DNA of 64,000 nt from Granulicella sp. S190. GTDB taxonomy: Bacteria; Acidobacteriota; Terriglobia; Terriglobales; Acidobacteriaceae. Shown here piece by piece: positions 40,813 through 45,071 of the stretch (the first letter of the stretch is position 1; the number at the start of each line of letters is the position of its first letter). The stretch covers positions 369,151 through 433,150 of the forward strand of contig NZ_LMUD01000009.1 in the NCBI RefSeq assembly GCF_009766095.1, read 5' to 3'. A program made the position numbers and the translations under genes. The notes under the pieces were generated by a model. The model was given only the letters and a program-made list of their open reading frames with translations. It ran no database searches and was not told the DNA's origin.

Positions 40813-42903
40813 TTAGTCGCCGGAGACGGTCTCTTCTACCTTGGGTGCCGGAGCCGCCTTGATCTCGCCGATGGAGATGAATCCAGCCGGAGCATCGGGC
40901 TCCTGGAGGATCTCCTTACGGTAGAGCTTGGCCATACGAGCGTTCTCGGCGTCCTGCTTGATCTTCGCATCGCGTGCGCGGATCTTCTCTTCGCGAGAGT
41001 TCTTCGCGATGCCGGACTTGTCGAAGGTGTCGTTGGCAGCCGCGTTGACGTGCTCGTTGTTGAGGACGAGATCGTACTTCATCTCTGCTTCGAGACCGAC
41101 CTTCTTACCGCCGGCGAAGATCTCGTGACGGCCATGCTCCTCATACCATTTGGTGAGGGTGGAGGTCATGTGCATCTTCTCGATGATATTGCGCCAGCCC
41201 ACGCCGGTGTTGTAGGCGCAGAAGCTGATCTCGCCCTCTTGTGTGGCGTAGGGGATGATGCACTGCTCGGTGCGGCGGAAGTCGTAGTTGAAGAGATCCT
41301 GGAACCACATACCGGCTATGAAGAGAAAGTTCCAACGGTCGGAGCGGCGCTTCTCGATATCGGCCATGGTGCGGTCTGCGGAGACCTTGCCGTAGCTGCG
41401 TCCGGTTGCGCCGAAGCTCTTGTCGAACTTCTGCAGCAGGTCCTTGATCTTGAAGTGAGTGGGAGCGGCCTCGGGCTTGTAGTTGCGAAGCAGCGCGAGC
41501 GTGACGCCGATGATGGAGAGCCACTTGCCGCGGGCGGCGTCGTTGATGCGGGCGACGTCCTTGGCGAGGCGGTCTGCGTTGATGAACGCGGTCACGGGAA
41601 CTGCTTCCTTGGTCTCCTTGTCGATCATCAGGGCCATCGAGATACCGCAGTTCGGGTGGCAGCCGCAGGAAAGCTGGCCCCAGTCGCGGTCTGGTCCGTG
41701 CACGAGATCGGCCCAGTCGGAGAAGGTGGACATGAAGGAGATAGGGAACCAGTCGCGGGTCGGCTCGCCGAGGCCGGTCTGGTTCTTCACGTCGTGTGCC
41801 AAATGCGACAGGGTGTAGCGCTGTGCCATACGGCGCTCATCGGAGATGTCCTCGTCGCGGCCGGTGAAGCTGACGGGCTGGAAGCTGAGGAAGTTGATCT
41901 TCTTCGGGTTGTCGAGAGCGAACTCGATGATGCGTCCGACTTGCTCGTTGTTAATTCCGTTGATGATGCAGGTTACGGGAACGATGTCGACTCCGGCCTC
42001 GTGCAGGTTGTGGATAGCCTGCAGTTTCACATCAAACGAGTTTCCGACCTTGCGGTGCGAGTTGGCAGCGTTGCCGATACCGTCGAACTGGAGGTAGGCA
42101 TAGCGGAGACCTGCTTCAGCAGCAGCCTTCGAGAACTCCTTGGACTTGGCGAACTCAATCCCGTTGGTCGCGGCCTGAACGGAGGTATAACCAACCTTGC
42201 GGGCGTAGGCGACGGCATCAAGGAAGTAGGGGCTCAGCGTGGGCTCTCCGCCGGAGAACTGGACCGACATCTGACGCTTGGGCTTGATGGTGACCGCATT
42301 GTCGAGCATGGTCTTGATCTCGTCCCAGGTGAGTTCGTGGACGAAGCCGACCTGATTGGCGTCCATGAAGCAGGGATCGCACATCATGTTGCAGCGGTTG
42401 GTAAGGTCGATGGTGAGAACCGAGCCGCGGCCATGGGTGACAGTGGAGGTGCCGTGATTGTGCAGCTTCTCGTCATTGTGGGCGCGGATGTCGCGGCCGG
42501 GGAAGACCTCTTCGAGATGCTTGAAGAAGGCCGTGTCGATGGACATCAGGTCTTCAAAGTGTCCGTGAATTGGGCAATCCTTAACCATTAGGATTTCGCC
42601 GTCGCGCTCGATGATCTGAGCCTTGATCTCACCGACCTTCTCGTTAAGCAAGATCTCGTGAGGCAGCTTGCCATCGACGATCTGCTGACGGATCTCAGGG
42701 ATACACCTGGGGCAGAGCGAGTCAGTGGTGCGAGGCCAGCCGAGAGGCGGCTTCTCTTTCTGATAGCTCTTGAGAAGCGGCTTGTCGCTCCACTTGGGCG
42801 TGAAGCTGGCGTTGGGGCTGAATGAGTTCAGCTTGTTGAATACTGCCCAACCTGCTTTGGCTCCGTACGTGAGAGCTTTTTCGGCTATTTTTGCCTTCGG
42901 CAT
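40813..42903 (-). CDS. Radical SAM enzyme related to tetraether lipid synthase (Tes/MJ0619 family)
   Basis: The 696-aa protein starts at ATG 42903 after AGGAG. The N-terminus has SLCPRC (Cys64, Cys67) and KDCPIHGHFEDL (Cys110), the rubredoxin-like metal site of the MJ0619/Tes family. The radical SAM site is CNMMCDPC (Cys171, 175, 178), with GGEP at 218-221. Further cysteines sit where Tes has auxiliary clusters: SCGCHPNCG (413, 415, 419) and the C-terminal TEQCIIPYAT/ISFCAYN (548, 562). Archaeal Tes joins two lipid tails to give membrane-spanning lipids. Terriglobales make iso-diabolic acid and branched tetraethers, so this is a good candidate for tail-to-tail coupling (inference). The end (600-696) is charged and specific. 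It appears monocistronic. Confidence 0.85.
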   Translation of the reverse strand: MPKAKIAEKALTYGAKAGWAVFNKLNSFSPNASFTPKWSDKPLLKSYQKEKPPLGWPRTTDSLCPRCIPEIRQQIVDGKLPHEILLNEKVGEIKAQIIERDGEILMVKDCPIHGHFEDLMSIDTAFFKHLEEVFPGRDIRAHNDEKLHNHGTSTVTHGRGSVLTIDLTNRCNMMCDPCFMDANQVGFVHELTWDEIKTMLDNAVTIKPKRQMSVQFSGGEPTLSPYFLDAVAYARKVGYTSVQAATNGIEFAKSKEFSKAAAEAGLRYAYLQFDGIGNAANSHRKVGNSFDVKLQAIHNLHEAGVDIVPVTCIINGINNEQVGRIIEFALDNPKKINFLSFQPVSFTGRDEDISDERRMAQRYTLSHLAHDVKNQTGLGEPTRDWFPISFMSTFSDWADLVHGPDRDWGQLSCGCHPNCGISMALMIDKETKEAVPVTAFINADRLAKDVARINDAARGKWLSIIGVTLALLRNYKPEAAPTHFKIKDLLQKFDKSFGATGRSYGKVSADRTMADIEKRRSDRWNFLFIAGMWFQDLFNYDFRRTEQCIIPYATQEGEISFCAYNTGVGWRNIIEKMHMTSTLTKWYEEHGRHEIFAGGKKVGLEAEMKYDLVLNNEHVNAAANDTFDKSGIAKNSREEKIRARDAKIKQDAENARMAKLYRKEILQEPDAPAGFISIGEIKAAPAPKVEETVSGD

Positions 42904-43207: not shown

Positions 43208-44158
43208 TTACTGCAGGTTAATGCCGTTGGTGCCGTTCGCAATATTGTTCAGAATGCGCTGAACGAAGATGATGCGAACGTGGACGTGGCTGGCTACGTC
43301 GGGCAGAAATTCGTTGAGCAGATTGCCGGCGGGGTCGATGGCATAGCTGGTTACGACGCGCGTGACGGTAGAGGAGGCATCGTTATGGATGCCGGGCACG
43401 TACTGGTTGGCGAGGACTGCGTCGATGGGATAGCTGAGGAGAACAGCGTAGTTGGGCATGGGGGTGCCATCGTCGTGGCGGGAGATGATGGTGCGCGAGA
43501 TGGAGTAGAGGATGCGCTTCGAGAGCCGAGCGTTCGGCATGCGGAAGTAGCGCGGGTCCTGGTGAAAGGCCACGGGAATGGCGAAGGCGCCGAAGAATTG
43601 ACCGGTGACATCCTGCAGATAACTGACACCGACGGATTTTCCAAAGCCTTTGAGTCCGGGGCCGTAAGCGGAGTGCGAGTCTGCGGCGACAGAGATGGCG
43701 GAGATGCCGACGATGGTGAGGAAGTTCGCGGGATCGGCAAGGTCGTGAAGCGCGAGATAACCCTTCTCCTGCCAGGTCATGGGAATGACGATGTTGGTGC
43801 CGAGAAACTTTTGGTAGGGATAGATAAGGTTCGCGCAGGGTCTGGGTACCTGGTCGAGGCGATTGGGGTTGTAGTAGACGACCTTCATGGCGCGGAAGGC
43901 GTTGCAGGGCTTCGCGCCGTCGCCGGTCTGTTGAAACGAGGCTTGAGCTAACGCAACGACGTTGCTCTGGGAGGTATCGACGGCGCTGGGCGCATCGGGA
44001 AGGTCTAGGTCGGGAAGATTGGCGTGAGGGGATTCCTTCGAAGGGGAGTCCGAGAGGATTGCAACAGTCTCATCTTGCGTTGGGGGCTGCGTGAGGGCCT
44101 GCGGGCGCGCGCTTGCGGCAGAGAGCAGTAGCGCTGTGGTCAGCAACCAGCAACGCAT
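43208..44158 (-). CDS. Hypothetical exported/outer-membrane protein with LPDAPS and HxDPRY motifs
   Basis: ATG 44158 gives 316 aa starting with a signal peptide (MRCWLLTTALLLSAASA); a longer frame to 44275 does not. The mature N-terminus has the motif LDLPDAPSA, recurrent in acidobacterial exported proteins. The body has several weakly hydrophobic stretches (NFLTIVGISAISVAADS, GQFFGAFAIPVAF) and the motif FHQDPRYFRMPNARLSKRIL, which is shared with the next gene. It ends with VRIIFVQRILNNIANG. The function is unknown. The shared motif and gene order indicate a paralogous pair of membrane-associated proteins. Confidence 0.72.
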   Translation of the reverse strand: MRCWLLTTALLLSAASARPQALTQPPTQDETVAILSDSPSKESPHANLPDLDLPDAPSAVDTSQSNVVALAQASFQQTGDGAKPCNAFRAMKVVYYNPNRLDQVPRPCANLIYPYQKFLGTNIVIPMTWQEKGYLALHDLADPANFLTIVGISAISVAADSHSAYGPGLKGFGKSVGVSYLQDVTGQFFGAFAIPVAFHQDPRYFRMPNARLSKRILYSISRTIISRHDDGTPMPNYAVLLSYPIDAVLANQYVPGIHNDASSTVTRVVTSYAIDPAGNLLNEFLPDVASHVHVRIIFVQRILNNIANGTNGINLQ

Positions 44159-44231
44159 GCCTATTCGAGTCAAATTATTTTCTGTATCGGGCCACATTAT
44201 GAAACCAGGAAGCCACAACATAAAAGTAAGA

Positions 44232-45071
44232 TCAGTCAGCCTTCTTAAGGTGAGCCGCCACCAGCGCATCGTCAAGGAATTCGGTGACGACGAACCCGAT
44301 CGCGGAGCCGCCGACCGAGGTTCCGAAGGTCTGCATGGTCTGGCTGAAGCCTCGGTTTGGCTGCGGGTAGTAGGCGTTGGTCAGAGCTGCACCGAAGAGG
44401 TTGCCGCTGAGGAGAGAGAGGTTGACGGTGGAGTTGCCGCTGTCGGTTTTGGTGATAATGGGCCGGGTGGCAGCGTAGACGACCCGTTTGAAGAAGTTAT
44501 TGCCATTGCCCATCTTGTAATAGCGGGGATCTTCATGCAAAAGGGGCGCGAACAGAGAGACGCTGAAGATGCTTTCGCTGACGTTGCGAAGCGCAGTTCC
44601 GCCAAGCCGTTCGCCGAAGGCTGCCTTGTCGGTCCCGTAGTTCGGGCTGCCGTTGGTCAGGTGACTGTAGCCGGCGGAGGTCGCCCAGCCAATGACGGAG
44701 AAGACTGTCACGGACTCTTTGAGACCGAGGACTACCTTGTCGTGAGAGTCGAGCTGGGGTGCGATCTGCCCGGGCAGGATGGTCATATCGCGCCGGGTAG
44801 GCAGCTTTACGTGCAGCTTTGGCGCGGGGATGAAGCCATGTTCGTAATCTGCAAGACCCTCGGCGGAGCTGGACTCGCCGGTTACAGCATCGCTGCTGGA
44901 GAAGCCGGGGGCATCAGGCAAGGAGAGCAGGGCATCCGTCACAGGGGACTGAGGCTGGGGAGTCTGGGCTATCGCGGCTGTTACTGCGGATGCTGCCAAT
45001 GCAAGGCCAGCTAAAGTCTTTACCGACCTGAAAGATATCCTCGAAGTCGGACGTACCCTTGCATTCGTCAA
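44232..45071 (-). CDS. Hypothetical exported protein, paralogue of its downstream neighbour
   Basis: This 279-aa protein has a signal peptide (TLAGLALAASAVTAAIA), then LSLPDAPGFSSS. Later come the hydrophobic stretch SVTVFSVIGWATSAGYSHL and the motif LHEDPRYYKMGNGNNFFKRVV, aligned in position with FHQDPRYFRM in the 43208 protein. Both also share a following R-x-I-I/I-I-T ... D-x-G ... N pattern and a late A-x-x-N/T-x-Y-x-P segment. Two paralogues 73 bases apart on one strand suggest a common complex or substrate family. No known domain was recognised. Confidence 0.72.
   Translation of the reverse strand: MTNARVRPTSRISFRSVKTLAGLALAASAVTAAIAQTPQPQSPVTDALLSLPDAPGFSSSDAVTGESSSAEGLADYEHGFIPAPKLHVKLPTRRDMTILPGQIAPQLDSHDKVVLGLKESVTVFSVIGWATSAGYSHLTNGSPNYGTDKAAFGERLGGTALRNVSESIFSVSLFAPLLHEDPRYYKMGNGNNFFKRVVYAATRPIITKTDSGNSTVNLSLLSGNLFGAALTNAYYPQPNRGFSQTMQTFGTSVGGSAIGFVVTEFLDDALVAAHLKKAD

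Follow-up and report, generated by a model that had tools for sequence, protein, structure and literature searches.

A conserved acidobacterial variant of the MJ0619/Tes radical SAM superfamily without the N-terminal [4Fe-4S] motif is a candidate for iso-diabolic acid synthesis

The window, a stretch of 64,000 nucleotides from Granulicella sp. S190 that was analysed as a whole, encodes a protein of the MJ0619 superfamily that is well conserved and is a variant of the archaeal tetraether synthase (Tes), not Tes itself. This protein is the best candidate that was found in the genome for the synthesis of iso-diabolic acid; its chemistry we infer from that of its relatives. It probably couples the iso-C15 tails of ester phospholipids to give ester-bound iso-diabolic acid.

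Published work is cited here from the parts of each text that were available. That bacterial Tes homologues act on lipids has been proposed before: Zeng et al. (2022) reported 456 of them, named those of Edaphobacter aggregans (32% identity), Koribacter (42%) and Solibacter (40%), and proposed a role in the synthesis of branched tetraethers (brGDGTs; PMC8941075), and Halamka et al. (2022) proposed one or both of the Solibacter homologues for diether coupling (PMC10087280). A split into two types, with and without the N-terminal cluster ([Fe4S4]N), was not found in the portions of the literature that were examined, supplements and the paper on the Mss enzyme aside. What is new here is the subfamily from which this cluster is missing, its distribution and a companion radical SAM gene.

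Results

The protein belongs to the MJ0619 superfamily and falls below the Tes equivalog cut-off

The open reading frame and the cysteine sites described in a sequence-only reading of this DNA were found to be real and present as described. The features are given below by window coordinates; identity and fill of regions were calculated from 83 rows of intermediate identity, and site counts from the full alignment.

40813..42903, minus strand: Tes-like radical SAM gene, ATG start, 696 aa
42739..42903, minus strand: N-terminal extension, residues 1-55, with a predicted helix at 3-27; identity 41%, 97% filled
42565..42714, minus strand: rubredoxin-like metal site C64, C67, C110, H113; from the alignment, with PF23545 over its cut-off
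42424..42462, minus strand: position at which the N-terminal [4Fe-4S] motif is expected, reading HNHGTSTVTHGRG; motif absent
42370..42393, minus strand: radical SAM motif C171xxxC175xxC178; kept in 187/187 rows
41647..41667, minus strand: CGCHPNC, with C413, C415 and C419 kept in 185/185, 185/185 and 186/186 filled rows
41218..41310, minus strand: C-terminal cluster region M532, C548, Y552, C562; M532 kept in 181/181 filled rows, each of the others in 179/179
40816..41115, minus strand: charged C-terminal tail, residues 597-696, with 17 K/R and 18 D/E; mostly not conserved

Two Pfam domains scored above their cut-offs, Radical_SAM (PF04055) at residues 167-329 (67.6 bits against 29.5; E = 1.9e-18) and the HMPTM N-terminal zinc ribbon (PF23545) at residues 57-121 (47.2 bits against 27), and together with the GDGT-MAS fold of the predicted structure they place the protein in the MJ0619 superfamily. 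The top NCBIfam model was Tes (NF045702; E = 1.1e-94), and the closest solved relative by sequence was GDGT-MAS (MJ0619; 7tol) at 8.7e-60, the runner-up standing at 2.7e-06. These two matches and those of the predicted fold confirmed the proposed membership of the MJ0619/Tes superfamily. NF045702 is an equivalog model with a curated cut-off of 450 bits, and the window protein scored 317.8 bits; it was rejected as a Tes equivalog on this score and on the missing N-terminal cluster. The protein is therefore not Tes proper, and the genome has no separate Tes-type gene.

An AlphaFold2 model built from 48 aligned sequences had a mean pLDDT of 80.3 and a pTM of 0.84, with values below 50 in several stretches within residues 148-186 and in 555-583 and a weak tail. 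Its best match in the PDB was GDGT-MAS (Foldseek, 2.1e-28). By VIA-align the model was superposed on 7tom with a Z score of 33.4 and an rmsd of 3.0 A, 466 residues being aligned of a 498-residue chain, and on 7tol with a Z score of 29.7; the aligned part spans model residues 55/56-593, and the next fold family, MoaA, reached Z 17.8. The structure prediction that the sequence-only reading had suggested thus gave the GDGT-MAS fold over the whole chain, C-terminal domain included.

The catalytic sites are invariant and the N-terminal cluster motif is absent

The alignment held 202 rows, each a protein of 400 aa or longer and some of them repeats of one gene; 187 were of the window type and nine of the Tes type. 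The six rows outside both groups were MJ0619, three far homologues, a further Tes-type row with CPxxCGxCxxH (L120) and a window-type fragment (L117). Each site cysteine was invariant in all filled window-type rows (179 to 187 filled of 187), and because of this invariance across the clade the motifs lie far beyond chance.

For MJ0619, structural work describes a rubredoxin-like site (C9xxC12..C33xxH36), a cluster near the N-terminus that is held by C73, C77 and C80 together with a histidine, the radical SAM cluster, and a C-terminal cluster for which the available text names one ligand, the labile Met439. The M439A change does not abolish coupling in MJ0619, and both Met439 and Tyr459 are fully conserved over 1000 archaeal homologues (PMC9433317). 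The rubredoxin-like site is present in the window protein as C64xxC67 with C110xxH113, which correspond to C9, C12, C33 and H36 of MJ0619, with C9 and C12 outside the aligned stretch. The features of the C-terminal cluster are likewise present: C419, C548, C562, M532 and Y552 are invariant where filled, M532 being the equivalent of Met439, C548 of C455, Y552 of Tyr459 and C562 of C470. As judged from conservation, C338, C455 and C470 would be the ligands of the C-terminal cluster of MJ0619, and C419, the equivalent of C338, is presumably a ligand in the window protein. Q342 and R349 were also invariant where filled, and S345 was kept in 186/187 rows.

In contrast, the N-terminal cluster motif CPxxCGxCxxH occurred in none of the 187 window-type rows of the alignment, that of the window included, and was kept in all nine Tes-type rows and in MJ0619. 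The auxiliary cysteine sites that had been read from the sequence were therefore borne out in part: those of the rubredoxin-like site and of the C-terminal cluster are kept, but [Fe4S4]N, one of three auxiliary sites, is absent. The middle site (SCGCHPNCG), which had been taken for a feature of archaeal Tes, also divides. MJ0619 reads SSHQHC here, so that C419 alone is common to both proteins and C413 and C415 are absent from the archaeal enzyme. C413 was nearly special to the window clade (2/9 Tes-type rows), and C415 was found in 7/9 Tes-type bacterial rows. The suggestion of a lineage-specific C-terminal tail was upheld in that the tail is mostly not conserved: its end, residues 621-696, had a mean identity of 9% and was 42% filled, against an identity of 85% for residues 531-575 (83 rows). 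A helix was predicted within the tail at 636-664 (AlphaFold2 model).

A radical SAM enzyme may also act on an unrelated substrate such as a cofactor, a peptide or a pterin. The first annotation given to MJ0619 was that of a pterin methylase (PMC9433317), and the neighbours of the window-type genes give little help, since the commonest neighbour cluster is found at 8/89 loci. We consider such a function very unlikely, as the whole chain, C-terminal domain included, aligns with GDGT-MAS at the Z score given above, and the residues that correspond to Met439 and Tyr459 do not vary among the filled rows.

It is the only Tes-model match at 1e-30 in the genome, and one ether-lipid domain was not found

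The genome contained 30 Radical_SAM matches at E <= 0.001. At 1e-30 the window protein was the sole match to the Tes model, the next best reaching 7.4e-15, and a search of the 29 other proteins (one of them partly masked) against NCBIfam at 1e-30 or 1e-20 returned no Tes model. Models over their cut-offs among these 29 were MoaA, MiaB, PqqE, BioB, RimO, HpnH, HemW, MqnE, LipA, RlmN and a UDG-linked protein; a further set weakly matched BchE, HpnJ or B12 models below cut-off, and the remainder were below cut-off or unnamed. Elsewhere in the genome, six radical SAM genes lie within about 11 kb (G000:C12:136090-147188; L259, L263, L264 and L267), five of which weakly match BchE, HpnJ or TIGR04072, a model of ladderane-type lipid proteins.

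The search for ether-lipid genes covered two domains, PF09989 and PF01869, the ElbD and Agps routes falling outside its scope. PF09989, which we take to be a domain of the ester reductases PlsA/Ger, was not found in the genome; the same search matched it in Thermotoga maritima. PF01869, a Ger domain (PMC13274423), was over its cut-off in two frames, of 311 and 320 aa, with a third match below cut-off in a frame of 490 aa. Since PF09989 was not found and PF01869 was over cut-off only in these two frames, ester-bound iso-diabolic acid is the expected product, and because PF09989 was not found branched tetraethers are less likely. The proposed C-C coupling for both kinds of lipid was thus sustained for iso-diabolic acid, for which the protein is a good candidate, and weakened for the tetraethers.

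That the protein serves ether lipids or branched tetraethers would agree with its fold and catalytic residues, which are those of Tes, and with E. aggregans, which has one Tes homologue and makes brGDGTs under oxygen limitation (PMC8941075). Against this stand the two domain results, and Edaphobacter strains whose iso-diabolic acid stands at 25% showed no ethers (PMC11354219); an ether-lipid role is accordingly regarded as unlikely.

The window type is widespread in Acidobacteriota

A window-type gene was present in all 36 other genomes of the same genus, in some only as fragments at contig edges. Beyond the genus, the order and class were represented by 24 genomes, of which 13 had the window type, six the Tes type only and five neither; four of these five are 54-88% complete and the fifth (G059) is 94% complete. 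Across the phylum, 396 acidobacterial genomes, each at least 85% complete, were surveyed, and 203 had a match at 1e-40, 20 of them of the Tes type only (by best E-value), leaving 183/396 with the window type. Among the matches listed, all 51 relatives of the same genus, family or class (21, 26 and 4, respectively) stood at 4.2e-297 or better, and the 20 unmatched genomes that were listed, with 173 further unmatched, were all relatives at the level of the phylum.

Contigs of named genomes were also scanned with a query fragment chosen to be about equidistant from the subgroups (69-76% identity). At least 582 stretches encode a relative, and the best 80 of these were taken. They included Luteitalea, Vicinamibacterales, Bryobacteraceae, a Solibacter MAG and Blastocatellia, a few MAGs under the names of other phyla (names taken as recorded), and two relatives in MAGs named Holophagales and Thermoanaerobaculia. 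In a quick tree, one surveyed genome (G172) grouped with Luteitalea (SH-aLRT 99).

Mutual exclusion of the two types was considered and rejected for the phylum as a whole. It was seen in one family of the same order (14 genomes, 54-98% complete), in which four genomes had the window type only, six the Tes type only, none both and four neither. Phylum-wide, the Tes model was over its cut-off in 34/396 genomes, and 14 of these 34 also had the window type, which 46% of all genomes have. Three genomes of the same family as the window, two of them from one genus, carry both types on the same strand, separated by 6.1, 3.7 and 0.5 kb. For six of the other 11 genomes with both types the coordinates are known, and the two genes lay on different contigs every time, as they did in G058.

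A SPASM-like radical SAM gene accompanies the window type in many genomes

The window-type gene mostly stands alone: no neighbour cluster was found at more than 8 of 89 loci, a set that includes some genomes twice (two records). The commonest cluster was a radical SAM/SPASM-like gene, which at seven of its eight loci lay directly upstream on the same strand (two of the seven belonging to one genome). In nine distinct genomes, from several families, this is the nearest upstream gene and has the same orientation; coordinates served to pick three of these genomes, and in one of the three a frame of 97 aa intervenes.

Loci with the companion upstream of the window-type gene: L127, L136, L138, L148, L171, L187, L234, L235, L236

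The companion is a SPASM-like radical SAM protein of about 340 aa with no NCBIfam equivalog over cut-off. At 1e-50 it was found in 32/50 genomes with the window type and in 0/17 without, a co-occurrence that is partly due to shared descent. The window's genome has it elsewhere (G000:C16:255853-256785; L255:773-1834). Neither G172 nor any of the nine subgroup A3-like genomes that were tested has the companion, and it therefore cannot be a general requirement of the reaction.

The genes that flank the Tes-like gene in the window seldom recur at other loci: among the 25 commonest clusters, a single two-locus cluster includes a gene of the window. Neighbours of the Tes-type genes were dehydrogenase subunits, ThiC, or proteins with no family match; these neighbour lists are rough, as longest-ORF calling also took antisense frames. 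Two genes upstream of the Tes-like gene (window 43208-45071, minus strand) encode proteins of 355 and 279 aa, which matched no Pfam or NCBIfam family at 0.001; by eye, a PDAP stretch is seen in both.

Discussion

Proposed reaction and lipid evidence

Carried over by analogy from MJ0619, the substrate, the product and the parked-radical step would be as follows. The enzyme would take up two phospholipids with iso-C15 acyl chains, and a 5'-deoxyadenosyl radical would abstract a hydrogen from the end of one tail. A sulfide of the C-terminal [4Fe-4S] cluster would hold the substrate radical while a second SAM-dependent abstraction gave a second radical, and formation of the Csp3-Csp3 bond would then yield ester-bound iso-diabolic acid.

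The reported lipids are consistent with this proposal. Iso-diabolic acid is known from subdivisions 1, 3, 4 and 6 (PMC13274423), which the named relatives fit (Luteitalea, Bryobacteraceae, the Solibacter MAG and Blastocatellia); judged by its relatives, the window's own genome probably belongs to subdivision 1. In a table of Edaphobacter strains, five of the six columns put it at 25.0-30.4% of the fatty acids and the remaining column at 11.8%, the E. paludis strains having 25.0-26.2%, and glycerol ethers were not detected in the strains tabulated (PMC11354219). It accounts for 26.8-49.2% of the fatty acids of Occallatibacter and its relatives (PMC12935467) and is among the main fatty acids of Chloracidobacterium (PMC12816986). 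Two points of distribution also favour the proposal: one type replaces the other in one family of the same order, and the two genes lie close together in three genomes of the window's own family.

Several results tell against this explanation. [Fe4S4]N is missing, hence the protein is no plain Tes, the window type is not universal in the class, and over the phylum the two types often occur in one genome. Relatives also occur in MAGs named Holophagales and Thermoanaerobaculia, groups in which, to our knowledge, cultured strains have no iso-diabolic acid. Finally, Thermotoga maritima is a maker of diabolic acid, and it had no match to the Tes model at 1e-30 and none to PF23545; its Mss thus seems to be of another subfamily, and bacterial coupling by Mss need not involve the window family.

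Mss, reportedly the membrane-spanning lipid synthase of Sahonero-Canavesi et al. 2022, could do the coupling in the window's genome, with the window protein modifying some other lipid and having only its fold in common. Mss is a validated bacterial enzyme with homologues in 11/97 acidobacterial MAGs from the Black Sea (PMC11868695). This arrangement is nevertheless improbable, as a search of the genome with the Tes model gave no second match at 1e-30, and Mss models reportedly resemble Tes in their catalytic architecture (PMC13274423).

Significance

In the parts of the literature examined, an acidobacterial enzyme for iso-diabolic acid has so far been proposed and not shown. As a stand-alone gene and the sole Tes-model match in its genome, the window gene is a straightforward target for deletion or expression. 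With one cluster missing, the protein offers a naturally occurring test of which auxiliary clusters coupling requires, a question left open in the available text of PMC9433317.

A broader reading, held more tentatively than the proposed coupling itself, is that the window type represents an acidobacterial third class of Csp3-Csp3 coupler beside Tes and Mss, which would act in aerobes on ester phospholipids, lack a surface-exposed N-terminal [4Fe-4S] cluster, have a SPASM-like partner in many lineages and make a quarter to half of the fatty acids of many soil Acidobacteria. Perhaps, as a guess, the N-terminal cluster was shed as a defence against oxygen. Iso-diabolic acid is the likely building block of the branched tetraethers, and these lipids underlie the palaeothermometers used for soils and lakes.

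Comparison with known systems

The likeness to GDGT-MAS/Tes comprises the predicted fold (residues 56-593), the rubredoxin-like site, the radical SAM motif, the C-terminal cysteines and the equivalents of Met439 and Tyr459. Compared with MJ0619, the window protein is without [Fe4S4]N, has C413 and C415 in addition, and is extended at both termini: MJ0619 has just 8 residues ahead of its first ligand, C9, whereas the window protein has a 55-residue extension. The two halves of the rubredoxin-like site are also 22 residues further apart than in MJ0619. A further mark of Tes is a hydrophobic tunnel that ends at 5'-deoxyadenosine.

The acidobacterial Tes-type proteins (type C) have the superfamily and the catalytic residues in common with the window type. 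The two that were scanned had Tes-model scores of 587 and 590 bits, above the cut-off of 450; seven shared 34-36% identity with the window protein (tblastn), and they differ from it in keeping [Fe4S4]N. In the quick tree of 61 rows, which carries long-branch warnings and groups MJ0619 with the far homologues, all 49 window-type rows are set apart from the Tes-type proteins by a branch 3.3 changes per column in length (SH-aLRT 100). The window type has subgroups of its own, including a paralogue group (B) at about 50% identity. Separately, three genomes of the same genus carry far homologues at 23-26% identity (L066, L067 and L068), two of which keep CPxxCGxCxxH, and one genome (L065, G033:C83) has, in addition to a full-length copy, a paralogue of the window type (about 44% identity) with a frame that stops after about 400 residues.

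Type C probably corresponds to the Koribacter and Solibacter homologues of PMC8941075. The E. aggregans homologue of that paper (32% identity, 4e-61) is, by identity and score, very probably of the window type; it was published as a Tes homologue, and the text examined names no missing cluster. For Mss the same reaction has been proposed; its models are said to have the Tes catalytic architecture, and similarity to Mss was defined by E <= 1e-30 and more than 30% identity (PMC13274423). Gms (GMGT synthase) likewise performs a radical SAM Csp3-Csp3 coupling of lipids, but it carries a SPASM domain (PMC11186832), whereas the window protein carries the C-terminal domain of Tes.
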